Origin: Deltaproteobacteria bacterium
GTDB lineage: Bacteria; Myxococcota_A; Polyangia; JAAYKL01
Length of the DNA stretch: 40,973 nt
Assembly (NCBI GenBank): GCA_030591725.1
Contig: JAUVAN010000004.1
Location: 1-40,973 of the forward strand
Direction: 5' to 3'
In this document: piece after piece, positions 1 through 18,509 of the stretch
Layout of the letters: each line of letters starts with the position of its first letter
Numbering within the stretch: position 1 is the stretch's first letter
The notes under the pieces: model-generated
Told to the model about the DNA's origin: nothing
The model's input: only the letters and a program-made list of their open reading frames with translations
Database searches by the model: none
Position numbers and translations under genes: made by a program

Positions 1-2
1 GA

Positions 3-104
3 GATAAAATACAGACGGAGCTGGAGAGAATAGCGGAATTTCACGAGAAGAACACCATTCCCCTGATCGGAAAACGGCTGAGCCGAATGCCCGGGACTAA
101 TTAA
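3..104 (+). CDS. C-terminal fragment of an unidentified protein (5' end outside window)
   Basis: Frame 3 is open from the window edge (DKIQTELERIAEFHEKNTIPLIGKRLSRMPGTN) to TAA at 102-104. Confidence 0.5.
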   Translation, partial: DKIQTELERIAEFHEKNTIPLIGKRLSRMPGTN

Positions 105-148
105 TCCGGGTTAGATTCATGCAAGGGGTCAGTTCTCTGCTGGAACGC

Positions 149-499
149 TCACTTTTTCTCGGGAACCCCGACAATTCCAACTGACGATCCCGCGCGGCAA
201 TAACCGGAACATGAGTACCCGGCCTGGGCCTCGCACACGCAGATCTCGCCCTCAGCGCACCCGCTGGTGATCTTCTCGCCACCTTCATCGGGACCATTGG
301 AGTCGGTGACAGAACATTGCCTGCGCTCACCTTCGGGGGGATCTTTCACGATGGGTTTCACGCCCTCGGGTTCAGGCTCGGCCGTGGGCTCCGGAACTGG
401 AACCTCATCCACCGAAGAAGCAGGCGTTTCCTCTACCGCAGCAACCGGGGCTCCGCCACAGGACGCAAGCATGGCAAAAATCAGTATCGCAAATCTCAT
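149..499 (-). CDS. putative Cys-rich lipoprotein
   Basis: Start at MRFAILIFAMLASCGG (lipobox LASC) preceded by GGAGGTAGCG; Glu/Pro-rich linker then Cys-rich C-terminus. The upstream part of the listed ORF is likely non-coding. Confidence 0.7.
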   Translation of the reverse strand: MRFAILIFAMLASCGGAPVAAVEETPASSVDEVPVPEPTAEPEPEGVKPIVKDPPEGERRQCSVTDSNGPDEGGEKITSGCAEGEICVCEAQAGYSCSGYCRAGSSVGIVGVPEKK

Positions 500-575
500 C
501 GCTACCTCCGGTAAACGATTGCATATGACTCCAAAAACGTACGATATTTGCGGATTGTTGTCATGTGGACCAATG

Positions 576-1196
576 TCACTCGACCAGCGCCGGAAGAACG
601 ATTCTTTCGACACCGAGGATGGAGCCGGACTCCACGGGAAGGCAAACTCCCTCGGCAACAAGCGGCTCCTGGTCAAGAACGACGCATTTGCTCTCCAGGG
701 GACACTCCACAGCTGGGTTAACATGGGGGATGATGCTACACGGCGCAAAACAATATCTGGACTCGTCAGCCCCCGCGTAGTCCCCGGGGATTGTGTCCGG
801 GTCGTATACGCAGGCTCCCGGACCGGCGGATGAGTGGGTTGAGCAGAAGATCATAACAAAGAGAGCACAGCCACTCCGTTCCATGTCCTCGCGATTGATG
901 CAGACGGATTCGTCCGGCCAGAGTTCACCACCAAGCCAGGAGCAAATTCCCCTTCCCACCTCATCGCCGTGATACTCTGCCCCATACACGGACAGCGCGC
1001 AGGGCTGCCGACAGGCACACTCCTCATCACGAAAGCGGACAGGCATCAGTCCCTGGTCGCATCGATCCCCCGAAGCGCAACATTCCTGTCCGAGGCTCCC
1101 GCAATCATCGACGCTTCCGTCGTTGTCCGAGCCCTCGATCCCCTGGACATGATGGCAGGCGGCAATGGCCACGAACACCAGTGGCAAGATCTTCAT
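576..1196 (-). CDS. putative Cys-rich lipoprotein
   Basis: MKILPLVFVAIAAC lipobox-like signal; about 16 cysteines, resembling Cys-rich secreted proteins common in Myxococcota. Confidence 0.65.
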   Translation of the reverse strand: MKILPLVFVAIAACHHVQGIEGSDNDGSVDDCGSLGQECCASGDRCDQGLMPVRFRDEECACRQPCALSVYGAEYHGDEVGRGICSWLGGELWPDESVCINREDMERSGCALFVMIFCSTHSSAGPGACVYDPDTIPGDYAGADESRYCFAPCSIIPHVNPAVECPLESKCVVLDQEPLVAEGVCLPVESGSILGVERIVLPALVE

Positions 1197-1297
1197 TTTG
1201 CTTTTCCAACTCATCGCAATCCGAGTATACGCAATCCTGGACAAATCGCCTTCCGATTATGGGTTGAACATGAAGAAATAGTGCGCATGTTTACCAT

Positions 1298-1582
1298 ATG
1301 AAACGGCCCGGAAAATTGGTTCATTACCTGGTCATTGCGATGCTGACACTCGTTGTGGCAGCGTTGAGTTCGGGTTGTAGCTTCAACCTCGGCTCCAAGA
1401 AAGTAACCGCGAGGCCGGGAATCCACTTGCCGGGAAACGCTTATACGGAGCCTGATGGAGACCTGGTGTATCACGAGACCTCTTCGCTAAAAGGAGATAG
1501 CTTTCTATTGATCTTCAGAATCAGGGACCGAAAATCGGGCGATAAGGAGAGCAGATTCCCCTCCCCACCGTGGGCGAGATGA
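1298..1582 (+). CDS. small putative lipoprotein
   Basis: N-terminal signal with lipobox (VVAALSSGC); short, no recognised family. Confidence 0.5.
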   Translation: MKRPGKLVHYLVIAMLTLVVAALSSGCSFNLGSKKVTARPGIHLPGNAYTEPDGDLVYHETSSLKGDSFLLIFRIRDRKSGDKESRFPSPPWAR

Positions 1583-1615
1583 TGAACGTCAGGTTTTTCC
1601 AGGGAAGGTGTTTGA

Positions 1616-3361
1616 TCAGGAGAGGTCTGCGATAACCGCCTTGACCGCTTCCCCGACGCTATTCGTGGAGCCGGTTCCTCCGAGGTCACCGGTGAGGTTC
1701 TGGCCGGCGGCGTAGAATTTCTCCGTCCCCTTGCCGACGAGCTCGGCGGCTTTCATGGCGACTTTCTTCTGATCGTCGTCTAGCCGCCCGGTGTTGTCGT
1801 TCCCCATGTGCTCCAGGAGCGCCGCCATTGCCCAGAGCGATGCGCCCGGGTTGATCTGGTTCGGCTCGAGATCGGGGGCGGTTCCGTGACCGGGTTCGGA
1901 AACTACGATGCCGGTGCTTACCGTGTAATTGAAGCTCGGCATCATGCCGATACCACCGATCTTGCTGGCTTCGGCATCGGTGAGGAAGTCCATCGTCAGG
2001 TTCGAGCCGATGACGGAATCGATTTCTTCCGGGTGCTCGACAGTATAGCGGCAGTAGTCCTTGATCTGCATGTACTTGATATCGAGATCGGCGTACTTAC
2101 TCTCGTCCGTAATCTTCCTGGCCTCAGCGATGAAGAGCTCGTCGCCCTTGAGCCCCTCGGAGCTGAGGATGAAGGTTGTCTTCTTGCCTCTGTTTATCGT
2201 GTCGTCCAGAGCGTAACGAACGAGATACTGCGAGTTCTTGGCGGTAATACGACGGAAGTTGATCGACTCGGTATCGGTGGATTTACCTTCGCCGATATAG
2301 AAGCCCTCGTTGTTCTGTCGATAACAGCGCGTGTCGATTCTCTTGTCGGTGAAGTTGTAGTTCTTCCCCTCAAAACGGCGCATGAAGCCGATATCCTGCC
2401 CCAGTTCCTTTTCCTCGACCGTCTTGAACATCGCTCCCGCGAGCGGCAACAGGAAGTCGCTGCCATAGAACTTGGAAGTCGCGACGACCTTGAACCAGTC
2501 CGGGTTCTTGGCGATACGCTGGAGCATGTTGTCAAAAATGGTGACTTCCAGGGTGATCCCCGGGAATTCTTTTTCCACTCCCTTTGCCAGGTCGACAAAG
2601 GCGCCGTCGGATTCCTTGAGGATATTCGCTTTTTGAGTGACATAGACCTTGTCTATGCCTTTTTCCTTGGCGTACTTGAACGCCTCTCGAATGATGGAAG
2701 CCGACTTGTCCGTGATGATCTTGGCGTCGGTGAAGTCGGTGCCTTTGAGATGAGGCGAATCGGAGATTACACCCTCGGGTCCGACGAAGACCGCCATGTT
2801 GACATCGACGGGAACGTATTTTTGCGGCGCGACGTTCCGGAAGTCACGTACGCAGGCGTCCGAAAGGAGCTTCTTGCGAGCAAACACGTTGATGCTCGAG
2901 GGCGTTCCCTTCCCCGAGAGCGTGCCGGTGGATCCCTTGAAAGCGTAGCCTACCTTGTTGATATGCCCCATGAATCCGTCTGCCGGAACCAGGACGTTGA
3001 CCTTGAGCAACGAATTTGCGGCGTCCTTTATAAAGGGAAGGTCGCCCTCGTTGACGTTGGGATATTTTCCCTTGATGGCGGCAAGGTCGGAGTTGATCAG
3101 AAACTCCAGCGTCTCGGGCACCTTGCCGTTCTTATCATTCAGCAACTGGATACCGAAGTTGTCCGTGAGCCTTTTCAGGAGCCGCAACCCGATGGTTAGC
3201 GTTGCGTCGTTCTCTTCGCTTATCCAGTTGAATTTGTACTCACTGCCGGTGAGCTTGCTCGCGCGAGCGAGCGCTGCGTCGGCAACATCCTTGACAACTT
3301 CACTCGCGTCTTCCGCGCGATCGTCACCCGGAAAATACAAAATATCGATGGTTTTGGTCAT
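1616..3361 (-). CDS. isocitrate/isopropylmalate dehydrogenase-family protein (probable isocitrate dehydrogenase) with apparent internal domain duplication
   Basis: VTQKANILKESDGAF, IFDNMLQRI, NLTMDFLTD, EPGHGTAPDLEPNQINPGASLWAMAALLEHMG and DLGGTGSTNSVGEAV match beta-decarboxylating dehydrogenase motifs; sits directly after aclBA and acn. Confidence 0.85.
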   Translation of the reverse strand: MTKTIDILYFPGDDRAEDASEVVKDVADAALARASKLTGSEYKFNWISEENDATLTIGLRLLKRLTDNFGIQLLNDKNGKVPETLEFLINSDLAAIKGKYPNVNEGDLPFIKDAANSLLKVNVLVPADGFMGHINKVGYAFKGSTGTLSGKGTPSSINVFARKKLLSDACVRDFRNVAPQKYVPVDVNMAVFVGPEGVISDSPHLKGTDFTDAKIITDKSASIIREAFKYAKEKGIDKVYVTQKANILKESDGAFVDLAKGVEKEFPGITLEVTIFDNMLQRIAKNPDWFKVVATSKFYGSDFLLPLAGAMFKTVEEKELGQDIGFMRRFEGKNYNFTDKRIDTRCYRQNNEGFYIGEGKSTDTESINFRRITAKNSQYLVRYALDDTINRGKKTTFILSSEGLKGDELFIAEARKITDESKYADLDIKYMQIKDYCRYTVEHPEEIDSVIGSNLTMDFLTDAEASKIGGIGMMPSFNYTVSTGIVVSEPGHGTAPDLEPNQINPGASLWAMAALLEHMGNDNTGRLDDDQKKVAMKAAELVGKGTEKFYAAGQNLTGDLGGTGSTNSVGEAVKAVIADLS

Positions 3362-3455
3362 CTTGACATCTCCATTTTTTGCATCTGGTCTTTTGTTTTT
3401 GGTTTATTGCGCGATTGTCGCACAAATCCCGATTCTCTTTGTGTCCCCTACAACT

Positions 3456-5309
3456 CTAGTAATAGAGTATGTCGTCCAATGGATGGCGATAGAGAGGCTG
3501 CTTCAGACGTTTCTGGTCAAAAACGTGCCCCATCATCCCGATTGTACGTCCGAGAATAAACAGGCTGTTCAACCCCTCGAGATCCAGTACCTCTTGCATC
3601 TCCTGAGCGGTGAATGCGCCTGACGATCTCATCATGTCCGTGAACAGAATGCCGATGCAACCATCGACATTGAGAATCAGGTTGTTGCGCTTGGAGGTCG
3701 TTACTTCCTCCACCTTGAGGGCGAAATCGAGGATGTCGGTATTGGGGAAGTTCTTCTTGGCGTACTCTTTCATGAGCGTAACGCGCTGGTCCGGATTCTG
3801 AACGCTCTTGATGAGGTGCCCGATGCCGGGAATGTTGATACCGGCCTGTTTCATTTCGGTGACGAACTCCAACGGCGACTTCTTGGCATCCGATGCCCCG
3901 GAGAAGTACTTTGCCGCGCCGTGCACGGCGCCGCCGAACCGCGGACCGATGGTCAGCATACCGCTGACGATGCATGAAATGAGATCCTTGCCCGCGCGAG
4001 CGGTGACAATGGCGTTGTGCGCGCCGGACACCGCAGCGCCGTGATCGGCGGTGATCATTACGGCCATCTCGAGGAATTTGGTGGCCCATGTCGGAAGCAA
4101 TTTCTTGAACCACAGCAGGCTGATAACACCTCCGATACCAATGTCGTTCTTGAACACATCCGAAATGGTCATCGAACGCTCGGAACCGTAAGGACCGCCG
4201 TAGGCCAGCTCGTCGCCGCTGTCGTCCGAAATCGTGGCAACGAAGTTCCTCGGCTTGCGGATGACTTTGTCCTTCAATGCCTTGGCGTAGTCCATCGGCA
4301 TTGCGGGCGCTTCTGTCAACGGGATTGGTTTGTGTTTCCCGTCCGCCACCATCTTGTCGTACGTTTCCTTGATAACGACATCGTAGGTCTCGAACGAATC
4401 GGGAACGATCGCGCCTGCTTCGCGCAGGGCTTCATTCTTGGCGGTGGCTGTCTCGGAAGCCTTGTCCGCCCTTGCGCCGGCGTGTCCAAACTGGACTTCC
4501 GTCTTGAAGATACCCGCGCAGGTGCCGATGTTCCACATCACGAGCGGCTTGGTAATTTTCCCTTCCTTGAGAGCTGCGACGATCTTGTACTCGTCCTCGC
4601 CGCCAACTTCTCCGAGCGCAACGATCATCTTGATAGCGGGATTGGCTTCGTAGCGGAACAGATGGTCGGTCAGCGTACTGAAGGGATAGCGGTCGCCACC
4701 GATCGCAACTCCCTCGTACAGTCCGTCCGTATTGCGGCCGATGATATTGTTGGCCTCGTTGGAGAGACCGCCCGACTTGGAGACGAATCCCACCGAGCCG
4801 GCGCGGTGCAGTTTGGACTCGACGATGTTGTCCAGCATGCCACCGGTGTTGCCGATCTTGAAAGCGCCGGCAACGATTCCGCCGACCGTGGCGGGTCCGA
4901 TGAGTATCTTTCCACCAATCTTTTTGGCCTTGGCGGTGATCTCCTTGGCATAGCGCTCCGGCATGCCTTCCGCGATGACGGTGATCACGCGGAGCTGTTC
5001 GTAGTCCAGCGCCTCCATCGTCGTGGGGAAGGCGGAACGGAACGAAGCAAAGTTGACCATCGTCTCTATTTTGCCGTGATTTTTCATCACGTCGCCGATT
5101 GTCGGATAGATCGGAATCAGGAGTTCCTTTTCCCCCATAAAGGCCTTGTGAAGCCCGCCTTTCAGAGCGGTCGGGTTGACGATTGCGGTAACGCTCGGCT
5201 TCTCTCTATTGCTGACGTAATCGAAGTCCAGCATTCGCTGGATTGCGTTCCGCTGATAGCCATAGATTACAGCTTCGGTATTCTTGTCGAATAGCATGTA
5301 GTCTTTCAT
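3456..5309 (-). CDS. aclA: ATP-citrate lyase large subunit (succinyl-CoA synthetase alpha-like + citrate synthase-like domains)
   Basis: Phospho-His region QFGHAGARADKASETATAKNEALREAGA; citrate-synthase-like C-terminus VDGCIGILFTDMMRSSG...LFILGRTIGMMGHVFDQKRLKQPLYRHPLDDI; 617 aa; adjacent aclB. Confidence 0.95.
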   Translation of the reverse strand: MKDYMLFDKNTEAVIYGYQRNAIQRMLDFDYVSNREKPSVTAIVNPTALKGGLHKAFMGEKELLIPIYPTIGDVMKNHGKIETMVNFASFRSAFPTTMEALDYEQLRVITVIAEGMPERYAKEITAKAKKIGGKILIGPATVGGIVAGAFKIGNTGGMLDNIVESKLHRAGSVGFVSKSGGLSNEANNIIGRNTDGLYEGVAIGGDRYPFSTLTDHLFRYEANPAIKMIVALGEVGGEDEYKIVAALKEGKITKPLVMWNIGTCAGIFKTEVQFGHAGARADKASETATAKNEALREAGAIVPDSFETYDVVIKETYDKMVADGKHKPIPLTEAPAMPMDYAKALKDKVIRKPRNFVATISDDSGDELAYGGPYGSERSMTISDVFKNDIGIGGVISLLWFKKLLPTWATKFLEMAVMITADHGAAVSGAHNAIVTARAGKDLISCIVSGMLTIGPRFGGAVHGAAKYFSGASDAKKSPLEFVTEMKQAGINIPGIGHLIKSVQNPDQRVTLMKEYAKKNFPNTDILDFALKVEEVTTSKRNNLILNVDGCIGILFTDMMRSSGAFTAQEMQEVLDLEGLNSLFILGRTIGMMGHVFDQKRLKQPLYRHPLDDILYY

Positions 5310-5318
5310 TTTTACCTC

Positions 5319-6587
5319 CTATTTCTCTTCCAGGCCAAGGCTTACGATTTTTGTCATATGAGTTTCGGGCCCGTAGACTTCGATCGGCACGCCGAGAGTC
5401 TTGCCCAGCTCACTCATCAGATCCAACCCCTCTTTGTAGTTGGGTCCACCACGTCGCACGTAGATTTTCACATCATTCTTTATCAACTTGTCCTTGTACT
5501 CCTTGAGGGCCTTGATGATGCCGGTGAAGGTCTTGGCAATGTCGGTGAAGTTGGCGATGCCGCCGCCGATGAGCAGAACCTTCCCCTTGGGGTGCTTTGT
5601 CCTGGTCATCAGATCCAGAACGGTCTTGGTGTACTCGTAGGTCAGCTCGGTGTTCGGATTGCCGCTGTATTCGCCATAGATCGCAATTTCTTCCGCTTTT
5701 CCGAGGTCGGCGATCGTGTCGGCATAGATCACACTTGCGCCGCCGCCGGCTACGAGTGTCCAGACTCTGCCTTTCGGATTGATCAGGGTCAGCTTGAGAG
5801 AGGCGCCGGTCTTCTCGTCGAGACTCTTGATGTACGCCTCTTCCTTGGTCATCGCTCGTCCAAACGGCGGAGGGAAATCCGTCTCGCCCCATTTTTCGAC
5901 GCACTCGTAAAGCGCCGTGTCGTCGAGGCGCGCGACCATGTCGAGCGGGAAGATGTTGTCGCCACTCATCGCAAACGGGTTGATCTCGAGATAAGCGAAA
6001 TGCAAGTCAGCATAATATTTGTACAGACCCTTGATGTACTTGGTCACCAGCTCTCGCTTCTTGTCGTCCAGCTCCGCCGGAAGCTTCGCGGCCACGTCGA
6101 TGGTCTCGATATCCGTGCTGGCCGGGACATCAATTTCCGATACCGTGTCCCACACTTCCTCGATATCCATGCCGCCCTTGGTCGAAAAATAGATAGTGTC
6201 GCCGGTCACATTGGACTTGATGGCGAGATAGTACTCCTCCTCGTGCTTGACCATTGGCTCGATGATGAAATGAGTGAGCGAATCGGTGATCTTGCCGACC
6301 TTTGTCTCCTTGTTCATCCGCTCATCGATCCACTTGCGTACTTCGCTCAGGTTCTTGTTGATGAGCAGAAGCCCGTGCTTGCCGCGCTTGCCGAAAAGCT
6401 GGTCCGGCTTTGCCACGAGTGGCTTGTCTTTGAGCCAGGGATTTTCTTTTGCCAGAGTATCCCAGTTGGTGTTTTCATCCACGAGCGCAATCTCACCCTC
6501 GTATCCGAAGCTCCCTCCCAGATATTCCGGCAGATATTTCGCCAGCATCCTCTTTCCATAGAATTCTCTTATTCCCCGTTGTGCCAT
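5319..6587 (-). CDS. aclB: ATP-citrate lyase small subunit (succinyl-CoA synthetase beta-like, ATP-grasp)
   Basis: MAQRGIREFYGKRMLAKYL..., HFAYLEINPFAM, LVAGGGASVIYADTIADLG, LLIGGGIANFTDIAKTF; 422 aa; immediately upstream of aclA as in aclBA operons. Confidence 0.95.
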   Translation of the reverse strand: MAQRGIREFYGKRMLAKYLPEYLGGSFGYEGEIALVDENTNWDTLAKENPWLKDKPLVAKPDQLFGKRGKHGLLLINKNLSEVRKWIDERMNKETKVGKITDSLTHFIIEPMVKHEEEYYLAIKSNVTGDTIYFSTKGGMDIEEVWDTVSEIDVPASTDIETIDVAAKLPAELDDKKRELVTKYIKGLYKYYADLHFAYLEINPFAMSGDNIFPLDMVARLDDTALYECVEKWGETDFPPPFGRAMTKEEAYIKSLDEKTGASLKLTLINPKGRVWTLVAGGGASVIYADTIADLGKAEEIAIYGEYSGNPNTELTYEYTKTVLDLMTRTKHPKGKVLLIGGGIANFTDIAKTFTGIIKALKEYKDKLIKNDVKIYVRRGGPNYKEGLDLMSELGKTLGVPIEVYGPETHMTKIVSLGLEEK

Positions 6588-6656: not shown

Positions 6657-8582
6657 CTAGAGGAAATTCAACATCCCGCCCGCCAGGATGATTTTCTTCT
6701 GACGCTCCGAAAGTTTGGCGCTCACAGTGAACGTTGTTCCCTTGGTGACGTTCTTCACAACTGCAACACCGTCGCCGGCGATGATATCGCGAACCTTTTC
6801 AATCTCGAGCTTGTCACCCTGATCGACCGCATCGAGATCGTCGGGGTTGTCGAAATTGAAAGGAATGATACCGAAGTTGATCAGGTTGGCGATGTGGATG
6901 CGCTCATACGACTTGGTAATGACCGCCTTCACGCCCATGTACATCGGACAGAGCGCCGCGTGCTCACGCGAAGAACCCTGTCCGTAACTCAGGCCGCCCA
7001 CGATGATGTTGAATTCGCCGTTCTCCTTGATTTTCTTCGCCCGGTTGAAAAACTCGGGATCGAGGACCTCAAAAAGAAACTCGGAATACTTGGGAACATT
7101 GGAGCGATATTTCATTTTCGCGCCGGCGGGTATGATGTGATCCGTCGTGATCTCATCACCGACCTTTATCGTCACTTCAGCCTTTATCGCATCGGGCAAC
7201 GGGTCGTTCTTCGGCGGGTCGCCGATATTGGGTCCGCGAACGATCTCGATCTTGCTCGGGTCCTCTGCGGGCGGAACGATCATGGTGTCGTCCACCAGGA
7301 ACTGGTCGGGCATCTCCACCTTTGGATACTCCATGTCGAGGTCGCGCGGATCGGTGATCTTTCCGGTGAGCACTGCTGCCGCCGCCGTTTCGCAGCTTAC
7401 CAAATAAGCATTTGCGCTCTTGGTGCCCGATCTATTGAGGAAGTTGCGGTTCGAGGTCCTCAGCGTCACCGCCTCTGACTTGGGCGACTGGCTGTTGCCG
7501 ATGCAGAAGCCGCAAGCGTTTTCTGCGAGCCGGCCGCCGGCCGAGAGCAGGTCGAAGAGCGACCCCTCCTTGGTCAACATTTGAAGAACCTGGCGCGAGC
7601 CGGGAGCAATGACGAGGCTGATATCGGGGGGCGCCGTTCCGCCCTTCACAATGCGCGCAGTGGTAGTGAGATCGACATATGAAGAATTGGTACAGCTTCC
7701 AACGCAAACTTGATCGACATGCATGCCGGCAAGCTCTTTTACAGTCTTGATGTTGCCCGGGCTGTGAGGCGCTGCCGCCAGCGGCACGACTTCGCTGAGG
7801 TTCAGCTCTACTACCTTGGCGTATTCGGCGTCGTCGTCGGCCTTGAACTCCGCCCAGTCGCCCTCGCGATTCTGCGCTTTCAAGAACTTGCGTGTCTCAT
7901 CATCGCTGGGGAAAATCGAGGTTGTGACACCGCATTCGGCGCCCATGTTGGTGATCGTGGCGCGCTCGGGAACCGAAAGGGTTGCCACGCCGGGGCCGCC
8001 ATACTCGAACAACATGCCCACATTACCCTTTGTGGTGAACATCTTCAGAACCGTGAGCACGACATCCTTTGCTGCTACCCATGGTTGCAGCTTGCCCGTC
8101 AGGTTGATTTTGACGACGTTGGGACAGGTGAGATAGAAAGCGCCGCCGCCCATGGCAACCGCCACGTCCAGGCCTCCGGCGCCCATGGCAATCATTCCGA
8201 TGCCGCCGCCCGTGGGCGTATGACTGTCGGAGCCGAGCAATGTCTTGCCCGGCTTGCCGAATCGCTCGAGGTGTACCTGATGGCAGATGCCGTTGCCGGA
8301 ACGGGAAAGATAGATTCCGTACTTCGCGGCCGCCCCTTGCAGGTATTTCTGGTCATCCGCGTTTTCATAACCTATCTGAATTGTATTGTGATCAACATAA
8401 CTTACGGCAAGTTCGTTCTTGACACGTTTGATGCCCATCGCCTCGAACTGCAAGTACGCCATCGTCCCGGTCGCATCCTGCGTCAAGGTCTGATCGATGC
8501 GAATGGCGATCTCTTTTCCGGGATCCCATTTTCCTTCTACGATGTGCTGCTCAATGATTTTCCGTGCCAAGCTCTTACCCAT
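6657..8582 (-). CDS. aconitate hydratase
   Basis: LLGSDSHTPTGGGIGMIAMGAGGLDVA, VCVGSCTNSSYVDL, ENACGFCIGNSQSP (4Fe-4S ligands), swivel domain GLSYGQGSSREHAA. Confidence 0.95.
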   Translation of the reverse strand: MGKSLARKIIEQHIVEGKWDPGKEIAIRIDQTLTQDATGTMAYLQFEAMGIKRVKNELAVSYVDHNTIQIGYENADDQKYLQGAAAKYGIYLSRSGNGICHQVHLERFGKPGKTLLGSDSHTPTGGGIGMIAMGAGGLDVAVAMGGGAFYLTCPNVVKINLTGKLQPWVAAKDVVLTVLKMFTTKGNVGMLFEYGGPGVATLSVPERATITNMGAECGVTTSIFPSDDETRKFLKAQNREGDWAEFKADDDAEYAKVVELNLSEVVPLAAAPHSPGNIKTVKELAGMHVDQVCVGSCTNSSYVDLTTTARIVKGGTAPPDISLVIAPGSRQVLQMLTKEGSLFDLLSAGGRLAENACGFCIGNSQSPKSEAVTLRTSNRNFLNRSGTKSANAYLVSCETAAAAVLTGKITDPRDLDMEYPKVEMPDQFLVDDTMIVPPAEDPSKIEIVRGPNIGDPPKNDPLPDAIKAEVTIKVGDEITTDHIIPAGAKMKYRSNVPKYSEFLFEVLDPEFFNRAKKIKENGEFNIIVGGLSYGQGSSREHAALCPMYMGVKAVITKSYERIHIANLINFGIIPFNFDNPDDLDAVDQGDKLEIEKVRDIIAGDGVAVVKNVTKGTTFTVSAKLSERQKKIILAGGMLNFL

Positions 8583-9875: not shown

Positions 9876-9988
9876 CTTTCTCTTGGTAAGTGCATTGGCT
9901 TTCTTGGGCGTAAAAGCAAAATGACTTTGATGCGATTCTGGGCAAAACAACATTTGTGTTTTCATCTGTACGAAGGATGCTATCAGAC

Positions 9989-11338
9989 ATGGATATTTCA
10001 TTCTTTAGCAGAGGCATCAAGCTATCCCGGCAGGTAACATCCGGGAAGATCGAGCAGATTCCTCCTTCCGAACGGGTGGTACTGCCGCTTCAACAGGGAA
10101 GCGGTCCACCCGCCGAGCTATCAATCGAAATTGGAGATGCGGTCGAGGTAGGGCAGACGCTCGCCCGAGGCGCTTCCAATAGCGGGGCTGACCTCCACGC
10201 TTCGATCAGTGGCGAAGTAACGGCGATCGAAGATCTGCATTTTCCCAACGGGACCACGGTCAAGGCGCTGGTCATCGAAGGCGATGGCAAGGACACCTGG
10301 ATAGAGCCCGACCGAGATGACAAACCGTTGATTGCAAGCCCAGACGAACTGCTCGAACGCATTCGCTGCGGCGGTGTCATCCGCGAAGGCGGCGAGACCA
10401 AGTCCCTGGCACAAGTCATAGACGAGGCCATGTCTCCGCGCGGGCATCTCTTCTCCACCGGATCCACGGTCGCCAAGCCGGTCAGGCACATCGCCGTGCG
10501 CTTTGCCGACCAGGATCCACACCTCAACGCGCTCGCGGCCCTGACCGCAACAATCGGCGATGAAACCGCAGATCTCGATCTCGGAGTCAAGGTGCTCGCT
10601 GCGATTACCGGCGCCGAGCAAATTCATTTCGTGCTCGATAACAAGCAAAATTCGCCCGGCGTGGACAAGCTGGCTGAAGAAAACGATTACGTTGTTTTGC
10701 GCCTGGACGCGGCCAACTATCCCGACCTCTCCAGTCCGATGGTAGCCCGGGCGGTTTCCGGCAAGGAGCCCGACACCGCCTTCAAGAGAGTGCACGAAAA
10801 CGGCATCCTGGTTTTGGATGTGGACACCGTACTGCAAACGGCCCTCGCCGTGCGAGACCGGCGGCCGGTGGTAGACAGACTTATAACGGTCTACGGCCCG
10901 GCCGGAGCAGGCGTATTCAAAGCGCGGCTGGGCACACCGCTCGCCGATATCGTCTCGGCCGCAGGCCAGGAGAAAAATATCGGAAAAATGGTGCTCGGCG
11001 GACCGATGAAAGGTCTCGCCCACCACACTCTCGATTTTCCGCTCACCAAGGAGATTCCCGCAATAACGCTGTTCGCCCAGAATCAAGTGACCCTGGCGGT
11101 CAACGATCCGTGCGTCGGTTGCGGCCTGTGCGCGATGGTATGCCCAATACGCCTCACGCCCGGGATGCTCTCCAGGTACTGCGAGTTCAGCTCGTGGGAT
11201 CTGGCGCAAGAGGCGCATTTATTCTCGTGCATCGAGTGCGGCTGTTGCGCATATGTATGCCCGGCCGGCCGCTCGATGGTGCAGTTCATGGTTCAGGGCA
11301 AAACTGAGTTGCTCTCCACGCGGAGGTCGGAATCATGA
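9989..11338 (+). CDS. rnfC: Rnf complex subunit RnfC, divergent
   Basis: HASISGEVTAI barrel-sandwich domain, VLGGPMKGLAHHTLDFPLTKEIPAI, two 4Fe-4S motifs (CVGCGLCAMVCP, CIECGCCAYVCP); first gene of a full rnfCDGEAB order. Start chosen at MDISFF with AAGGA about 11 nt upstream; 9977 is an alternative. Confidence 0.9.
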   Translation: MDISFFSRGIKLSRQVTSGKIEQIPPSERVVLPLQQGSGPPAELSIEIGDAVEVGQTLARGASNSGADLHASISGEVTAIEDLHFPNGTTVKALVIEGDGKDTWIEPDRDDKPLIASPDELLERIRCGGVIREGGETKSLAQVIDEAMSPRGHLFSTGSTVAKPVRHIAVRFADQDPHLNALAALTATIGDETADLDLGVKVLAAITGAEQIHFVLDNKQNSPGVDKLAEENDYVVLRLDAANYPDLSSPMVARAVSGKEPDTAFKRVHENGILVLDVDTVLQTALAVRDRRPVVDRLITVYGPAGAGVFKARLGTPLADIVSAAGQEKNIGKMVLGGPMKGLAHHTLDFPLTKEIPAITLFAQNQVTLAVNDPCVGCGLCAMVCPIRLTPGMLSRYCEFSSWDLAQEAHLFSCIECGCCAYVCPAGRSMVQFMVQGKTELLSTRRSES

Positions 11339-12315
11339 CAAATCAACGACTTGTCGTTTCAATATCCCCTCATATAAAAAACGGCCGCACCGTGCGCCGC
11401 ATGATCGTGACTACGATAGCGGCTCTCATGCCGGCTACTCTCTGGGGATTCTATCAGTTCGGCCTCGATGCCGTAGCGCTCGTCGCGGTTGGAATCACCG
11501 CCGCGTGCGGTACCGAAGCGTTGATCAGCCGATTGGCCGGGAAGACGTCCTCTCTGGGTGACGGCCACGCAGTGCTCACTGGCCTCGTGCTCGCCCTGCT
11601 CGTGCCGGCCGGCGCACCGTTCTGGCTCGTAATCGTGGGAGCGGCAATGGCCATCCTGGTGGGCAAGATGCCGTTCGGTCCTCTGGGCGGAGCACCCATT
11701 TATCCAGCGCTCGTGGGGTTGTTGATCGTCGCGACCTCCTGGCCGAACGAGATAAAGAGCTATGTCCAGCCGACCACCGCGCCAATCGAGCTCAAGGCGC
11801 AGGGCGCGGCCGATGCTGAATTCCCGCGTGACGCGGTACTCATCGACCCCAGCGACGAGGCCGAATACAAAACCGCAGACCTCTTCCTCGGCAAACAGGT
11901 CGGGCCGATAGGCGTGATTTCCCCGTTGCTCCTCTTGCTCGGGGGGTTGTTCTTGATCCTGCGCCGGGTCTCCCGATGGCAGGCGCCGTTCGGATTTCTG
12001 ATCGGCATGGGCCTTGCCGCCGGGATCGGCCACGCGCTCGACCCGAGCGGTTGCGCTTCTGCGTCTTTTCACCTGTTCACCGGCTCGGCCATGTTCGGCG
12101 CGTTTTTCCTGTGCACCGACTGGTCGTCGACACCCGTAACCCCGTGGGGCATGTTCCTGTTTGGCTTGATCGGCGGCGGGTTGGCCGTGCTGCTCAGAAT
12201 TGCGGGCCTTCCTTACGGGGCCGTGCCGTGGGCCATCGTGATCATGTCACTGGCGACACCGATCTTTGACCGCATCACCCCCACGCCTTTCGGAAAGGTG
12301 GCGAGCCATGCGTAA
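11335..12315 (+). CDS. rnfD: Rnf complex membrane subunit RnfD, divergent
   Basis: Polytopic NqrB/RnfD-like protein (VGKMPFGPLGGAPIYPALVG, DLFLGKQVGPIGVISPLLLLLGGLFLILRR); ATGA overlap with rnfC. Confidence 0.9.
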   Translation: MTNQRLVVSISPHIKNGRTVRRMIVTTIAALMPATLWGFYQFGLDAVALVAVGITAACGTEALISRLAGKTSSLGDGHAVLTGLVLALLVPAGAPFWLVIVGAAMAILVGKMPFGPLGGAPIYPALVGLLIVATSWPNEIKSYVQPTTAPIELKAQGAADAEFPRDAVLIDPSDEAEYKTADLFLGKQVGPIGVISPLLLLLGGLFLILRRVSRWQAPFGFLIGMGLAAGIGHALDPSGCASASFHLFTGSAMFGAFFLCTDWSSTPVTPWGMFLFGLIGGGLAVLLRIAGLPYGAVPWAIVIMSLATPIFDRITPTPFGKVASHA

Positions 12316-12913
12316 CAAAATCTGGTTCATGGCGGTCGTGCTCGGCGTCGTGGCGTTCCTCGCCGGCCTGGCTCTGTCCGGGGTTAAAGGAATGACCACT
12401 CCGATTATTGAAAAACGCATCCTGGAACAAAAGATCAAACCCAGCCTCGACAAGTTTTTCGACGGGCTCGATCTGGAAAACGATTGCATTGAGGATCGAC
12501 AGGTTCTCGACCTCGGCAAGGACGCCCGCGGCCGAAAGCAAGTCACCACTCTGTTTTTGGGTAAAAAGGGCGGCAAGACCGTGGTCGCGGCGCTCCAGAC
12601 CAAGGCCGCAGGTTTCGGCGGCGACATAGAGGTGCTCACGGCTTTCAGCCTCGACGACAAGAAGATCCTCGGCGTAAAGACGCTGAGCCAATCCGAGACA
12701 ATGGGCCTTGGAGCCCGCGTTTCCAACGATGCCGAGCCGTTTATCCAGCAGTTTGGCGGAATGAATTACTCGGATGGAGTCGCAATGCGCTCGAACGGCG
12801 GGCAGGTGGACGCCATCTCCGGAGCAACGGTTTCGTCGGTGGCATTCACTGCGGCGGTAAACAGGGCGACTGTGCTCGTGGAAAAAAACGTGGACTCGGC
12901 CGCGGCGAATTAG
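12308..12913 (+). CDS. rnfG: Rnf complex subunit RnfG (FMN-binding)
   Basis: Single N-terminal TM, GLGARVSND, covalent FMN motif VDAISGATVSSVAF; overlaps rnfD. Confidence 0.92.
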   Translation: MRNKIWFMAVVLGVVAFLAGLALSGVKGMTTPIIEKRILEQKIKPSLDKFFDGLDLENDCIEDRQVLDLGKDARGRKQVTTLFLGKKGGKTVVAALQTKAAGFGGDIEVLTAFSLDDKKILGVKTLSQSETMGLGARVSNDAEPFIQQFGGMNYSDGVAMRSNGGQVDAISGATVSSVAFTAAVNRATVLVEKNVDSAAAN

Positions 12914-12925
12914 GAAGGCGTGAAC

Positions 12926-13567
12926 ATGAAGACATTGACCCAGGAGTTCACCAAGGGCCTTTGGGAGCAGATACCGCCCTTCCGGCTGGTGCTCGGACTA
13001 TGCCCTACCCTGGCGGTGACCAAATCGCTCGAAGGCGGATGGGGCATGGGCCTGGCCACCACGTTTGTGCTCGTCTGCTCAAACATCTTTATTTCGGCAT
13101 TGAGGAATGTCATTCCACCCAAGGTGCGCATCGCAACCTTCATCGTGATCATCGCCACTTTCGTCGTGATCACCGAGCTTGTCATGAAGGCCTACACACC
13201 GATGCTCTCTGAAACGCTGGGAGTCTTCATACCGCTCATCGTCGTCAACTGCATCATCCTCGGCAGGGCGGAGGCGTTCGCCTCCAAAAACGGAGTGGGG
13301 CGTTCCCTGCTCGACGGCCTGGGCATCGGACTCGGCTTCACCCTGGCACTCGCCGTGCTCGGCGCCCTTCGAGAATTGCTCGGCACCGGCAAGCTGACCA
13401 TGTTCGCCCAGGCGAATCTGGATTTAACAATCATCCCGCTCGGAGAGGGCCGTGAGTTTCTATTCAAATTCATGGTCGATCCTCCCGGAGCGTTTGTCTG
13501 TCTGGGAGCAATGCTTCTATTGATGAATCTAATAAGTGAACGATCAGCCAGGTCCAAGGCCGCGTGA
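12926..13567 (+). CDS. rnfE: Rnf complex membrane subunit RnfE
   Basis: RLVLGLCPTLAVT and IPLIVVNCIILGRAEAFAS, conserved Cys positions of RnfE/NqrD. Confidence 0.95.
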   Translation: MKTLTQEFTKGLWEQIPPFRLVLGLCPTLAVTKSLEGGWGMGLATTFVLVCSNIFISALRNVIPPKVRIATFIVIIATFVVITELVMKAYTPMLSETLGVFIPLIVVNCIILGRAEAFASKNGVGRSLLDGLGIGLGFTLALAVLGALRELLGTGKLTMFAQANLDLTIIPLGEGREFLFKFMVDPPGAFVCLGAMLLLMNLISERSARSKAA

Positions 13568-13577
13568 GGAGAAAATC

Positions 13578-14156
13578 ATGACCGAATACCTACTTCTCGT
13601 CGTTTACGCCGTCCTGGTCAACAACATCCTTCTGGCTCAGTTCCTGGGCAACTGTCCTTTCCTGGGAACCTCTCAAAAAATGAGCACGGCGACCGGGATG
13701 GCCATGGCGGTTATTTTCGTCCTGACTTTCGCGGGAGTGATCACCTGGGCGGTCCAGTGGTACGTGCTCGTTCCACTCGAGTTGGAATATCTGCAAACAA
13801 TCGCGTTCATCCTGGTAATAGCCGCGCTCGTTCAGTTGGTGGAGATCGTACTGCAAAAGACAGCTCCCGCGCTCTACAGCGCACTCGGGATATTTTTGCC
13901 GCTCATCACCACCAATTGTGCCGTGCTCGGCGTGGCGATCATCAATATCAAAGAGGATTACGATTTCGCAAATACCGTGGTCTTCTCCTTTGCCTCGGCG
14001 GTCGGGTTCGGCCTGGCCCTGGTTCTGTTCGCCGGGCTCAGGGAGCGGTTCGCCCTTTCGCGAATGCCCAAGGCACTTCAGGGCACCGTATCGGGCCTCA
14101 TCACCGCCGGATTGATGGCCCTGGCCTTCCAGGGTTTCATGAAGCTCGGAGGATAG
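13578..14156 (+). CDS. rnfA: Rnf complex membrane subunit RnfA
   Basis: NNILLAQFLGNCPFLGTS, LPLITTNCAVLGVAI typical of RnfA/NqrE. Confidence 0.96.
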   Translation: MTEYLLLVVYAVLVNNILLAQFLGNCPFLGTSQKMSTATGMAMAVIFVLTFAGVITWAVQWYVLVPLELEYLQTIAFILVIAALVQLVEIVLQKTAPALYSALGIFLPLITTNCAVLGVAIINIKEDYDFANTVVFSFASAVGFGLALVLFAGLRERFALSRMPKALQGTVSGLITAGLMALAFQGFMKLGG

Positions 14157-14160
14157 ACAA

Positions 14161-16239
14161 ATGGAAGTACTAGCAGCAGCGCTTGTCATCGGCGGAATCG
14201 GCATGATCTCAGCAATCGGCCTGGGTGTGGCCGCCAAGGTTTTCGCCGTGTACATCGACCCCAAGGTGGTCGAAGTCGACGAGGTTCTTCCCGGCGCAAA
14301 CTGTGGCGGTTGCGGCTATACAGGCTGCGCGGCAGCAGCGACGGCAGTGGTCAAGGGCAAGGCCGGACCAAACGTATGCGTCGTGGGTGGCCAGGAATGC
14401 GCCGAGGCAGTGGCCGCGATCATGGGCCTGTCGGCGGAGGAAGGCGAGGTTGGGATCGCCGAGTTGGGATGCAAATACGATGTAAGGAAAGCCCATCTCC
14501 TGTTCGATTACGACGGGATCGAGGATTGCCGGGCGGCCGCTCTGGTAAACGGCGGCGGCAAGGTCTGTTCCATGGGCTGCCTGGGATTCGGCACATGCAT
14601 AAGCGCCTGCCAGTTCGGAGCTCTATACAGAGGCGCGGACGGCCTGCCCGCGGTGGACAAGGAAAAATGCACCGCCTGTGGCGCCTGCGAGCGGATCTGC
14701 CCCAAGGGGATCATCCGGGTACAGACGCCGAGCCGGAAGTTCACTCATGTCCAGACCGATGACGATTGCGTGGCCCCTTGCCAGGCGACCTGTCCGGCGC
14801 AGATCGATATTCCGGCGTACATCGCCGCAATCGGACGAGGCGATTACGAGAAAGCTGTATGCATCATCAAGGAGAGCAACCCGTTCCCGCTGGTCTGCGG
14901 ACGCGTCTGCCCGCATGTCTGTGAGTCGGTCTGTCGGCGTAACGATATAGACGAGCCGGTAAACATCAATCACCTCAAGCGGTTTGCCGCAGACTTCGAG
15001 ATGAATTCAGGCAAGAGGTTCTTGCCGCAAGTCCTGCCCTCAAACGGCAAGCGAGTAGCCATCATCGGCGCGGGACCTGGAGGCCTGACCTGCGCCTACT
15101 ACCTGGCCCGCATGGGTTACTACGTCAAGGTTTTCGAGGCCATGCCCAAGCCCGGCGGGATGCTCCTCTACGGCATCCCCGAGTACCGCCTGCCGAAGAA
15201 AACCCTCGAGTGGGAGATCGGCGGCATCCTCGAGCTGGGTGTTGAGCTCGAGTGCGACAAGGCGCTCGGCAAGGACTTCACCATCGAAGATCTCTATGAG
15301 CAGGAATACGACGCAATTTTCCTCGCGGTCGGAGCCTGGGACTCACGGCGTCTGGGCGTCCCCGGAGAGCAGGACTTTCCCCAGGTGGCAAGCGGCACCG
15401 AATTCCTGATCAAGCGCGGTCTCGGAGAAGAAACGCCGGTCGGTAGCGATGTGATCATCGTGGGCGGCGGCAACACGGCAATGGATGCGGCGCGCACCTC
15501 CTGGCGGCTCGGCGCAGAAAACGTCTACCTGCTCTACAGACGCTCCCGCAAGGAGATGCCGGCCAACGACATCGAGGTGGACGAGGGCGAGCACGAGGGA
15601 ATCAAATACCACTTCCTGGCTGCCCCAACCAAGCTTATCGGCACGGGCGGCAAGCTCGATGCCATGGAGTTCCTCAAGATGGAACTGGGCGAGCCTGACG
15701 CATCCGGACGCCGACGCCCGGTGCCGATAGAGGGCTCGGAATCGAACATCCAGGCGGACAACGTCTTCAGCGCGATCGGTCAATCACCTGATCTCACCTG
15801 CCTGGACGCAGAGGGTGTCGCGACCGGGTTGAACCGCACCAAGTGGAACTCAATCGTGGCCGCCGATGGCACAATGCAAACCGATGTTGCCAATATCTTC
15901 TCTGGCGGCGACGCATGGCGCGGTGCGGCGACTGCGGTGGAGGCGATCAGAGACGGTCGTTTCGCGGCGCGGTCCATCAATCTGTTCCTCATGGGTGAGG
16001 AAATGACCTTGCCTTCCAACTGGTACGCCAAGGCGCCAAAGCTTCCCGGCATAGATGAGGGCATCAAGCTCGATACATCAGAACGCGCAAAGATGATCGA
16101 ACTCTCCGTTGACGAGCGGCGCATGAACTTCAACGAGGTTGAACTCGGAATTACCGAAGAGATGGCCAAAAAAGAGAGCGAGCGCTGCCTGCAATGCGGC
16201 GAGGTCTGTTATCAGGGTTACAGGGAGAAGGCGTCATGA
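14161..16239 (+). CDS. rnfB: RnfB fused to GltD/NfnB-like NAD(P)H-dependent FAD/Fe-S oxidoreductase
   Basis: N-terminus: TM + CGGCGYTGC 4Fe-4S + 2x4Fe-4S ferredoxin (CSMGCLGFGTCISAC; CTACGACERICP). From about 14749: Fer4_20-type region (CVAPCQATCPAQIDIPAYI...CGRVCPHVCESVCRR), FAD motif VAIIGAGPGGLTCAYYLARMG, NAD(P) motif VIIVGGGNTAMDAARTSWRLG...LLYRRSRKEMPA. Confidence 0.93.
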   Translation: MEVLAAALVIGGIGMISAIGLGVAAKVFAVYIDPKVVEVDEVLPGANCGGCGYTGCAAAATAVVKGKAGPNVCVVGGQECAEAVAAIMGLSAEEGEVGIAELGCKYDVRKAHLLFDYDGIEDCRAAALVNGGGKVCSMGCLGFGTCISACQFGALYRGADGLPAVDKEKCTACGACERICPKGIIRVQTPSRKFTHVQTDDDCVAPCQATCPAQIDIPAYIAAIGRGDYEKAVCIIKESNPFPLVCGRVCPHVCESVCRRNDIDEPVNINHLKRFAADFEMNSGKRFLPQVLPSNGKRVAIIGAGPGGLTCAYYLARMGYYVKVFEAMPKPGGMLLYGIPEYRLPKKTLEWEIGGILELGVELECDKALGKDFTIEDLYEQEYDAIFLAVGAWDSRRLGVPGEQDFPQVASGTEFLIKRGLGEETPVGSDVIIVGGGNTAMDAARTSWRLGAENVYLLYRRSRKEMPANDIEVDEGEHEGIKYHFLAAPTKLIGTGGKLDAMEFLKMELGEPDASGRRRPVPIEGSESNIQADNVFSAIGQSPDLTCLDAEGVATGLNRTKWNSIVAADGTMQTDVANIFSGGDAWRGAATAVEAIRDGRFAARSINLFLMGEEMTLPSNWYAKAPKLPGIDEGIKLDTSERAKMIELSVDERRMNFNEVELGITEEMAKKESERCLQCGEVCYQGYREKAS

Positions 16240-17450
16240 GAAGACCGCTTTGGTTCGGCTGGGCCGTGATTTGCGGCGTGGTGTTTGTCTGGGGATGTAC
16301 AGATCAGGAAACCGCATCCAAAGAGCCTTCGGCCGCGAAACAGGCACCGTTCAAGAGGATCCCGGACGGAGACGAAGATCCAGGGGACAATGGACCGGAC
16401 GACTCCACCGAGCTTTCCGGCGTGCCCGGCGACATGGGAAAGGTTGCGTTCACGCACTTTACACATGCCTCGAACAGTAAAAAGGGATACGGCATCCCCT
16501 GCCGCGAGTGCCATCACACAACGCCCCGGGACGAAGATCCGGCCCAGGGTTGTGCGGATGAGGGCTGTCACTACCCAGTCGAAAAGACATACGACCCGGC
16601 CCATGCCGGACCCGACGACAACATGCTTCTCTTCGGGAATGACCCGACTGCGACGGCCCCGGTCGCGTTCAATCACTTCACGCATGCTTCGTCCAGCGGT
16701 TACAAGACCGCGTGCACCCAGTGCCACCACACCGGCGATCTCATTGGTTGCTCCGAGTGCCATGAAAAGATTGCGACGAAAGCCGACGATGGCAAGGTTA
16801 TCCCCAAAACCAAGCGGGCATTTCACCTCAAGTGCAATGGTTGTCACCAGGCTATCAAGAAGAGCGACCCGGATTCAATAGCTCCCGTCAAATGCGCGGA
16901 TTGCCACGGTGGCCGCACGCCGGCCCGCCTGCCCGGCAGCCTTACCCTGGAGCGAGCCTATCACCTGAGCTGTGTAGGATGTCACAACCGGGTAAAGATG
17001 GCCGGGACGGGAACCCCGCCTGTAGATTGCGGCGACTGTCACAAGCAGGGCTCGCCAAAGATCCCGAGTCCCGAGCCCAAAGAGGAAAAAGCGGCGGAAA
17101 AACCAGCGCCGCAGGAGCAGCCGGCACCCAGCGCACCCACCGCGCAGGCCGCCGACGCCGGAACCGCAGAGCCGGCAAAGGACGAGGAACAAAGCAAGGG
17201 CCCGGAAAAGATCCTCATTGACCACGCGAAAAAGGCCAAGTCGGGCACCCCGTTTCCGCACAGCGCACACCAGGAACTCGGCGAACCATGCGCCAAGTGC
17301 CATCACCAGGGCCTCGATGATCCGTCCTGCCGCAACTGTCACAGCGAAACAGCTGACGCCAAGAAAATCTATCACAAGATCTGCATCGCCTGTCACAAGG
17401 AAAACGGCATCTCGGCCGGATGCGCGGACTGCCACCCCAAGGGCGAGTGA
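16236..17450 (+). CDS. 12-heme c-type cytochrome with class III (c3)-like motif arrangement, secreted/possible lipoprotein
   Basis: 11 CXXCH motifs (CRECH, CTQCH, CSECH, CNGCH, CADCH, CVGCH, CGDCH, CAKCH, CRNCH, CIACH, CADCH) plus one CX4CH (CADEGCH); N-terminal signal VVFVWGC; Pro/Ala/Glu-rich linker before the last four hemes; ATGA overlap with rnfB. Confidence 0.92.
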   Translation: MRRPLWFGWAVICGVVFVWGCTDQETASKEPSAAKQAPFKRIPDGDEDPGDNGPDDSTELSGVPGDMGKVAFTHFTHASNSKKGYGIPCRECHHTTPRDEDPAQGCADEGCHYPVEKTYDPAHAGPDDNMLLFGNDPTATAPVAFNHFTHASSSGYKTACTQCHHTGDLIGCSECHEKIATKADDGKVIPKTKRAFHLKCNGCHQAIKKSDPDSIAPVKCADCHGGRTPARLPGSLTLERAYHLSCVGCHNRVKMAGTGTPPVDCGDCHKQGSPKIPSPEPKEEKAAEKPAPQEQPAPSAPTAQAADAGTAEPAKDEEQSKGPEKILIDHAKKAKSGTPFPHSAHQELGEPCAKCHHQGLDDPSCRNCHSETADAKKIYHKICIACHKENGISAGCADCHPKGE

Positions 17451-17468: not shown

Positions 17469-18509
17469 CTAGAAGGTATTCCAGTTGATGACCATTCCCC
17501 ACTCCACCACGGTGAAACCGGTGCGGGTGAAGGTTGAGGGACTGGGTGTGGCCAGGACGCCGCAGATGGGTGAACCCTCAACCATCAGCCAGATCCGAAG
17601 CATGCTGTCTGGGGTGGGGGTGATGGAGACGCCCATATTCTGATCGATGATCGGGACCGGCTGCGGAAACACGTTGTAGCAAGGAGCGCTGGGCAGGTTG
17701 ACCGACCAGTAGTCCGAGAAATCCTGGATCTCGTCGGCGTTGAGTCCCATCAGAGGGAGGTTGTCGTCGAACCAGTCGAAGATCTCGGTCCCGTTTACGA
17801 CCCACCCCTCGGTCTCCTGGAAATTCCATATCACGGTAGACTCGTAGAACAGGTAGTCGTACGTGCCGTCAATCAACCCGGTCGGCTCGGCCCATACGTT
17901 CCAGCCGGTTCCGTAGGTCGGATCCGAAGCAACGATGCTGGTTACCGGGTTTGGCGACAGAGTGACGCTCACGTTCTGTCCTTGCTCGGGGTAGAGGTAA
18001 ATATACGGCGCGTCAGCGGTCATCTCCGTCAGATCGATGTCCTGCTCAACTGAGGCGCCCTCGGCCACGACCACGCCGAAGACCTCGCCAGCATAGATAT
18101 CCTGGTAGGCACACAGGTCGTACGTGTCCGCCGGCAATCCCGTAATAATGTAATCGCCGCTGGAGTCGGAATTTACCGGTCCGTATGAGGTGTACAGGGT
18201 CGTGCTCATGGCCGTAACCTGTGCCGTTGTGGCCGGGCCGCCGCCCTCGATGGTGAGGTTACCCCATATCTCACCGTCGGAATCCGTATCGGAATCGGTG
18301 TCCGAGTCGGTGTCGGAATCGGTGTCGGAATCGGTGTCGGAATCGGTGTCCGAGTCAGTGTCGGAATCAGTGTCCGAGTCGGTATCCGAGTCGGTGTCGG
18401 AATCTGAATCCGTTCCTCCGTCAACCTCGTTTTTCTCCACCGTGTCGCAGCCCAGGCACATCGCGCAAGCGCAAATCATGAGAACCAAGTTCCATTTCAA
18501 GGCAGTCAT
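17469..18509 (-). CDS. putative lipoprotein with (SDTD)n linker and carboxypeptidase-regulatory-like domain
   Basis: MTALKWNLVLMICACAMCLGC lipobox; (SDTD)n spacer; Ig/regulatory-like region GNLTIEGGGPATTAQVTAMSTTLYTSYGPVNSDSSGDYIITGLPADTYDL. Confidence 0.75.
   Translation of the reverse strand: MTALKWNLVLMICACAMCLGCDTVEKNEVDGGTDSDSDTDSDTDSDTDSDTDSDTDSDTDSDTDSDTDSDTDSDTDSDGEIWGNLTIEGGGPATTAQVTAMSTTLYTSYGPVNSDSSGDYIITGLPADTYDLCAYQDIYAGEVFGVVVAEGASVEQDIDLTEMTADAPYIYLYPEQGQNVSVTLSPNPVTSIVASDPTYGTGWNVWAEPTGLIDGTYDYLFYESTVIWNFQETEGWVVNGTEIFDWFDDNLPLMGLNADEIQDFSDYWSVNLPSAPCYNVFPQPVPIIDQNMGVSITPTPDSMLRIWLMVEGSPICGVLATPSPSTFTRTGFTVVEWGMVINWNTF
18278..18411 (-). repeat. in-frame 12-nt tandem repeat encoding Ser-Asp-Thr-Asp
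   Basis: About 11 degenerate copies of TCGGAATCGGTG read on the + strand. Confidence 0.85.

Follow-up and report, generated by a model that had tools for sequence, protein, structure and literature searches.

A compact isocitrate dehydrogenase-like protein with a duplicated small domain encoded in an ATP-citrate lyase operon of Myxococcota

Introduction

Monomeric isocitrate dehydrogenases (IDHs) are the textbook case of passage from dimer to monomer by domain duplication, and their sequences lie too far from those of dimeric IDHs for the step to be traced. In these type III enzymes the first copy of the small domain gives a Lys and an Asp to the active site, and the second gives a Tyr and the DxxxD motif. 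A related division of labor exists in the yeast and human IDH3 heterodimers, where the site of one subunit receives its Lys and Asp from the partner. Type III enzymes (PF03971; Azotobacter, Corynebacterium; structures 1itw and 2b0t; Campylobacter, 7y1u) consist of one chain whose two ends build a large domain around a duplicated small domain, and their cofactor motif is usually of the NADP+ type. Ordinary dimeric NAD-IDHs and mitochondrial IDH3 (PF00180; PRK08997, TIGR00175; 6ltf, 6lky, 5yvt) have one small domain per chain and active sites shared by two chains. IDHs are sorted into types I, II and III, the last of ~740 residues (PMC8287583, PMC4360740), with an origin by duplication given in the passage of PMC5979607 that cites Yasutake 2002. 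The duplicated plan is also found in each subunit of the dimeric AbIDH2, which both its sequence and its length of 745 residues place in type III (PMC5979607).

The protein described here, hereafter compact IDH, is apparently a smaller IDH that has escaped description. In the open-access literature searched, which mostly excludes subscription journals, no account of a duplicated IDH of ~580 residues was found, nor was such a class found in Pfam, NCBIfam or the PDB; an already described short monomeric class, which would have spoken against the original prediction, was thus not found in these sources. Since the compact chain can still be aligned to dimeric NAD-IDHs over each of its halves, the route from dimer to monomer becomes directly accessible to study, including the residues given up by each copy and the choice between one and two events. 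The exchange of a classical, usually NADP+-linked, IDH gene for that of a predicted NAD+ enzyme in an otherwise unchanged citrate lyase operon is furthermore a testable cofactor change by gene displacement, in the setting of a reversible or reductive TCA cycle.

The compact IDH gene and its family

The window is the whole stretch of DNA analyzed, 40,973 nucleotides of contig JAUVAN010000004.1 from a Deltaproteobacteria metagenome-assembled genome (MAG; GCA_030591725.1). Compact IDH is encoded by the last gene of a minus-strand operon with the order acn-aclB-aclA-idh:

6657-8582, minus strand: aconitase (NF005558, 910 bits, over the cut-off)
5319-6587, minus strand: aclB, ATP-citrate lyase beta (Citrate_bind, Citrate_synth_N)
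3456-5309, minus strand: aclA, ATP-citrate lyase alpha (Citrate_synt, Ligase_CoA)
1616-3361, minus strand: compact IDH gene, intact ORF with ATG start, 581 residues, 63.7 kDa (Pfam and profile matches)

The protein matches Pfam Iso_dh (PF00180) in two stretches with 150.9 bits, above the gathering cut-off of 27 (E 7e-44), and its relatives score 126-154 bits. It remains below the curated NCBIfam cut-offs of PRK08997 (158.8 versus 510) and TIGR00175 (138.4 versus 432.4). PF03971 gives no match to it at E 1, nor to any protein of its genome at E 0.001 (86% complete MAG), while the monomeric IDH of a sister species scores 1291 bits against this model. Its length of 581 residues (579-580 in relatives) agrees with the shortfall of ~160 residues from classical monomeric IDHs of ~740 noted in the original prediction. 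Compact IDH is not filed under type III, because it has neither the sequence match nor the length of that class, though it would work alike.

PF00180 also covers dehydrogenases acting on homoisocitrate, isopropylmalate or tartrate, and the NCBIfam scores of compact IDH are scattered across the IDH, homoisocitrate and isopropylmalate models, every one below its cut-off. A pseudo-dimeric beta-decarboxylating dehydrogenase for one of these other substrates is nevertheless very improbable: the highest NCBIfam and PDB sequence matches are IDHs, the gene sits in an aconitase-ATP-citrate lyase operon in which sister species keep an IDH, and it is the sole PF00180 gene found in the 86% complete genome, where no PF03971 IDH was found.

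Internal duplication of the small domain

The chain is divided into four segments, all on the minus strand:

2867-3361, minus strand: single large domain, N-terminal part, residues 1-165 (assigned by way of the alignment with ordinary IDHs and model secondary structure)
2426-2857, minus strand: small-domain copy 1, about residues 169-312, K244 and D277 kept, Tyr and DxxxD lost (HMM, model, self-comparison)
1958-2386, minus strand: small-domain copy 2, about residues 326-468, R348, Y355, D458 and D462 kept, KAN lost (HMM, model, self-comparison)
1619-1954, minus strand: single large domain, C-terminal part, residues 470-581, with the cofactor loop (alignment to ordinary IDHs and model)

An HMM of the small domain (131 positions) built from nine ordinary NAD-IDHs, with compact sequences left out, matches compact IDH twice, at residues 212-301 with an i-E of 3.7e-19 and at 342-465 with one of 1.3e-9; each relative likewise has two matches. 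Comparison of the compact-family profile with itself yields a single outlying diagonal among 441, at offset 157 (z 4.83; the second reaches 2.82). The order of secondary structure in the predicted model repeats at offsets 155-157 (H219/H374, E238/E395, H249/H406, E270/E427, H276/H433, E292/E449, H297/H454). Pairwise BLASTP between the two copies gives no match. A chance repeat as source of the signal is ruled out by the double HMM matches, the outlying diagonal and the repeated secondary structure.

Alignment to ordinary enzymes leads to the same division. Dimeric NAD-IDHs share about 26-37% identity with compact IDH in both halves, as well as the family, the NAD+ motif and the catalytic residues. 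Those from bacteria of the same class align twice, their small domain (about 100-240) matching query residues 134-311 and again part of 325-580. In the profile alignment (E 2.9e-27; 1.7e-30 with a broader set) ordinary IDHs cover residues 128-300 and then 458-576, leaving 301-457 as extra, which means that the large domain is present once and the small domain twice. Compact IDH therefore departs from ordinary dimeric enzymes, which have one small domain per chain. MAFFT placed every ordinary small domain onto copy 2, and the HMM match at 342-465 rules out that this copy is an unrelated insertion, the outcome that would have contradicted the original prediction. The two similar segments reported there do exist at the residues given, but ~100 residues was too short: the period, recovered by self-comparison, is 157.

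Active site and cofactor

The residues of the putative active site map as follows:

2846-2896, minus strand: substrate-binding segment S156-x-N158-x3-R162...R172 (sequence motif, invariant in relatives)
2630-2632, minus strand: catalytic Lys244, in KAN (KGN in relatives; motif and alignment)
2531-2533, minus strand: metal Asp277, in FDN (motif and alignment)
2297-2299, minus strand: catalytic Tyr355, in RQNNEGFY (motif and alignment)
1976-1990, minus strand: metal-binding D458xxxD462, in NLTMDFLTD (motif and alignment)
1868-1888, minus strand: NAD+-type cofactor motif H492-G-T-A-P-D497-L498 (sequence; NAD-type Iso_dh rows share D497)

In the numbering of E. coli IDH, S156, N158, R162 and R172, which sit before copy 1, correspond to S113, N115, R119 and R129 with a constant shift of 43. 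Likewise, K244 corresponds to K230, D277 to D283, R348 and Y355 to R153 and Y160, and D458 and D462 to D307 and D311. All ten compact IDH residues are invariant in a five-row alignment of relatives, and the full substrate, metal and catalytic set of an IDH is present in the chain. Copy 1 is without the Tyr and DxxxD, copy 2 is without the KAN lysine, and both together hold exactly one full set. The positions originally proposed for K244, D277, Y355, D458 and D462 were right, as were the losses of DxxxD from copy 1 and of KAN from copy 2. The E. coli NADP+ enzyme has K344-Y345 where compact IDH has D497-L498. D497, at the 2'-phosphate position (K344 in E. coli), is invariant together with ordinary NAD-type rows of the alignment, and compact IDH is predicted from this motif to use NAD+.

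Predicted structure and working model

The AlphaFold model built from 15 rows has a mean pLDDT of 77 and a pTM of 0.76, with low-confidence stretches at residues 145-155 and 492-501. With five close relatives as the only input the pLDDT was a poor 51, and it rose to 77 once ordinary IDH halves were added. Ordinary N-halves were left out because MAFFT put ordinary small domains on copy 2; in the model, copy 2 and the C-terminal part lean on ordinary IDHs, and copy 1 is backed by compact sequences only. Foldseek against the PDB places type III monomeric IDHs at the top (7y1u, 3.4e-12; 2b0t, 4.7e-12; 1itw, 6.0e-12) in alignments that span the whole compact chain at 12-14% identity. Dimeric IDHs and IDH3 come next, IDH3 alpha with a TM-score up to 0.80 by target length. 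By query length the TM-scores are modest for all targets (0.3-0.54), probably from differing or poorly set domain orientation in the model. Sequence-profile matches to the PDB reached dimeric IDHs, and none of the 60 matches listed is named monomeric IDH.

These data support the idea of a single-chain pseudo-dimer with an active site split between copies: the double HMM matches, the one large domain, the residues and the fold all point the same way. The operon, the replacement in situ and the predicted use of NAD+ go beyond the original prediction. We consider it quite probable that the gene encodes such an IDH, derived from an ordinary PF00180 enzyme via tandem duplication of the small domain. 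Along the chain, the two small copies, 1 before 2, would lie between the N-terminal and the C-terminal parts of the large domain. Copy 1 would stand in for the partner subunit, contributing the Lys and a single metal Asp; copy 2 would act as the small domain proper to the subunit and contribute the Arg, Tyr and DxxxD; and the sole large domain would supply the substrate Ser, Asn and Arg residues and the NAD+ loop. One chain would thus build one active site on the type III plan, in a protein 160 residues smaller and of a different sequence family. IDH3 heterodimers work alike, with the difference that in compact IDH the lender is copy 1 of the same chain; they are made from separate genes and have regulatory subunits, whereas copy 1 is without a large domain of its own. 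The type III plan, with a large domain from both ends around a duplicated small domain, is present in compact IDH when compared with the AbIDH2 domain limits of PMC5979607.

Sequence cannot tell oligomeric state, and dimers or tetramers occur among type III IDHs with this architecture (PMC5979607, PMC8287583). Two 64-kDa chains of compact IDH could accordingly form a homodimer, or copy 1 could be regulatory like IDH3 beta/gamma; we regard this as rather unlikely, as the full residue set in each chain means that catalysis needs no dimer. A monomer with one complete site is the state we infer.

Relatives and distribution

A motif of the form Asn-hydrophobic-x-not-Gly-Asp...(Ser/Thr)Asp...Gly-x-x-Gly, of which a stricter form was first tried on the window, was searched in 85,462 species genomes. 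It returned 66 matches; five are relatives with 64-67% identity and the others ordinary Iso_dh proteins:

L119: relative in Deltaproteobacteria NP119 (motif scan)
L076: relative in M3003 (motif scan)
L107: relative in Myxococcota MAG.451 (motif scan)
L072: relative in KLAP109 (motif scan)
L096: relative in Myxococcales S139, with an assembly gap (motif scan)

The six genomes, that of the window and five Myxococcota MAGs, are a lower bound since the scan misses members without the motif. In all five relatives aclA lies directly before the compact IDH gene. No full-length relative was found among 378 genomes drawn from the phylum, own genome aside, and tblastn in plasmids gave ordinary Iso_dh only. 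Sampling of class and phylum around one genome (G406) comprised five known genomes, all positive, which is not counted as class-wide presence. Strict single-protein pattern scans of the genome and viral contigs returned nothing because 8-residue patterns are too strict, and a pattern based on the KAN-to-NxEGxY spacing failed to detect even the window, since its Lys244 is AAA. Degenerate probe alignments with invented variation were applied to viral contigs only, two patterns each, and their rows carry no evidence.

Replacement of the classical gene in the citrate lyase operon

Two genomes of the same genus share the operon, with acn, aclB and aclA 93-95% identical, and in both a classical monomeric IDH gene (PF03971, about 1290 bits) directly follows aclA. 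This is the operon slot of compact IDH, which replaced the classical gene in situ:

1594-3454, no strand assigned: stretch differing from sister species, where the classical monomeric IDH gene lies (DNA comparison)

Homology to the same-genus DNA breaks off with the stop codon of aclA (window 3455) and restarts within 11-1593 in pieces 85-92% identical, a range that holds for the flanking DNA on either side; in one of these genomes (G002), window 11-101 has its match at the end of the gene adjoining idh. No remnant of the classical IDH gene was found in the window. Other family members with ATP-citrate lyase (G009, G011) also carry PF03971, which makes the classical gene the likelier earlier state. 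The GC and third-position GC of the compact gene (55.4/75.1%) match those of aclA (55.8/73.9%), so that the replacement need not be very recent. Reductive TCA genes including IDH were repeatedly transferred horizontally in Chlorobiales (PMC9560492), and displacement as such is therefore not new.

An assembly artifact joining a foreign gene to the contig might be suspected in a MAG of 513 contigs with 4.3% contamination, given a gene near a contig end and same-genus genomes without it, yet it is rejected on the same-genus DNA flanking both sides (3455 onward and pieces within 11-1593), the GC match to the neighbors and the same aclA-idh order in relatives.

In the stretch from an acuC-like gene to idh (window 1-1616; L041 1424-3727), no two of the genus's three species agree. 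Blocks are reordered, a DEAD-box helicase gene is present in one species and absent from another, and the stretch looks like a variable spot.

No citrate synthase besides ATP-citrate lyase alpha was found in the genome (86% complete MAG) and five POR_N-type oxidoreductase genes were found. This gene content is in keeping with a TCA cycle that is reductive or reversible, in which compact IDH would act in the acn-acl branch from 2-oxoglutarate through isocitrate and citrate to acetyl-CoA, or in reverse. Three loci of the same class (L045, L046 and L049, in G036, G052 and G058) have acn-aclB-aclA, with neither PF03971 nor compact IDH (tblastn) found.

One duplication or two

Compact IDH and type III could descend from one duplication, compact IDH being a conserved relic or intermediate and type III having later grown by about 160 residues and diverged beyond detectable sequence similarity. 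Domain order and residue allocation are the same in both, Foldseek gives its lowest E-values with type III, and an unusual DxxxD context is shared: in each type the first Asp follows a residue other than Gly and precedes an aromatic one (MDFLTD versus RDYLTD/RDYNTD). Weak profile matches are moreover colinear, copy 1 (192-255) with 235-301 and copy 2 plus the C-terminal part (410-521) with 528-655. These matches are, however, insignificant (E 0.05 and 0.45) and no better than that between ordinary and type III IDHs (E 0.0016), while compact and ordinary IDHs are related at 1.7e-30; compact IDH is thus not measurably nearer type III (E 0.05) than ordinary IDHs are. Residue allocation does not discriminate between origins because it is forced on the fold by a tandem small-domain duplication, the DxxxD helix continuing into the large domain's C-terminal part. 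The distribution so far of six genomes also speaks against the shared origin, which we hold to be doubtful.

The compact family sits on a very long stem (2.75 changes per column in a tree without copy 2), and its nearest ordinary relative is weakly placed; the small-domain tree likewise places the compact copies weakly. Two duplication events are favored over one. On balance we lean towards the hypothesis that compact IDH represents a fourth structural type of IDH, born from a second, independent small-domain duplication, NAD+-linked, housed in Myxococcota ATP-citrate lyase operons and displacing the classical gene in place.

Other features of the window

On the plus strand, an rnf cluster (9956-14156) ends with a 692-residue ORF (14161-16239) that is a fusion of an RnfB-type Fe-S domain (PF04060) with a GltD/NfnB-like FAD/NAD(P) oxidoreductase (PF14691, PF07992). 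The listed start of the next ORF (16194-17450, plus strand), multihaem cytochrome-like with many CxxCH motifs, overlaps the 3' end of this fusion. The minus-strand ORF at 17469-18509 has a lipoprotein-like N-terminus followed by a long Asp-Ser/Asp-Thr repeat, and that at 20598-23234 (minus strand, 878 residues) seemingly combines two M16-peptidase-like halves in a single chain.
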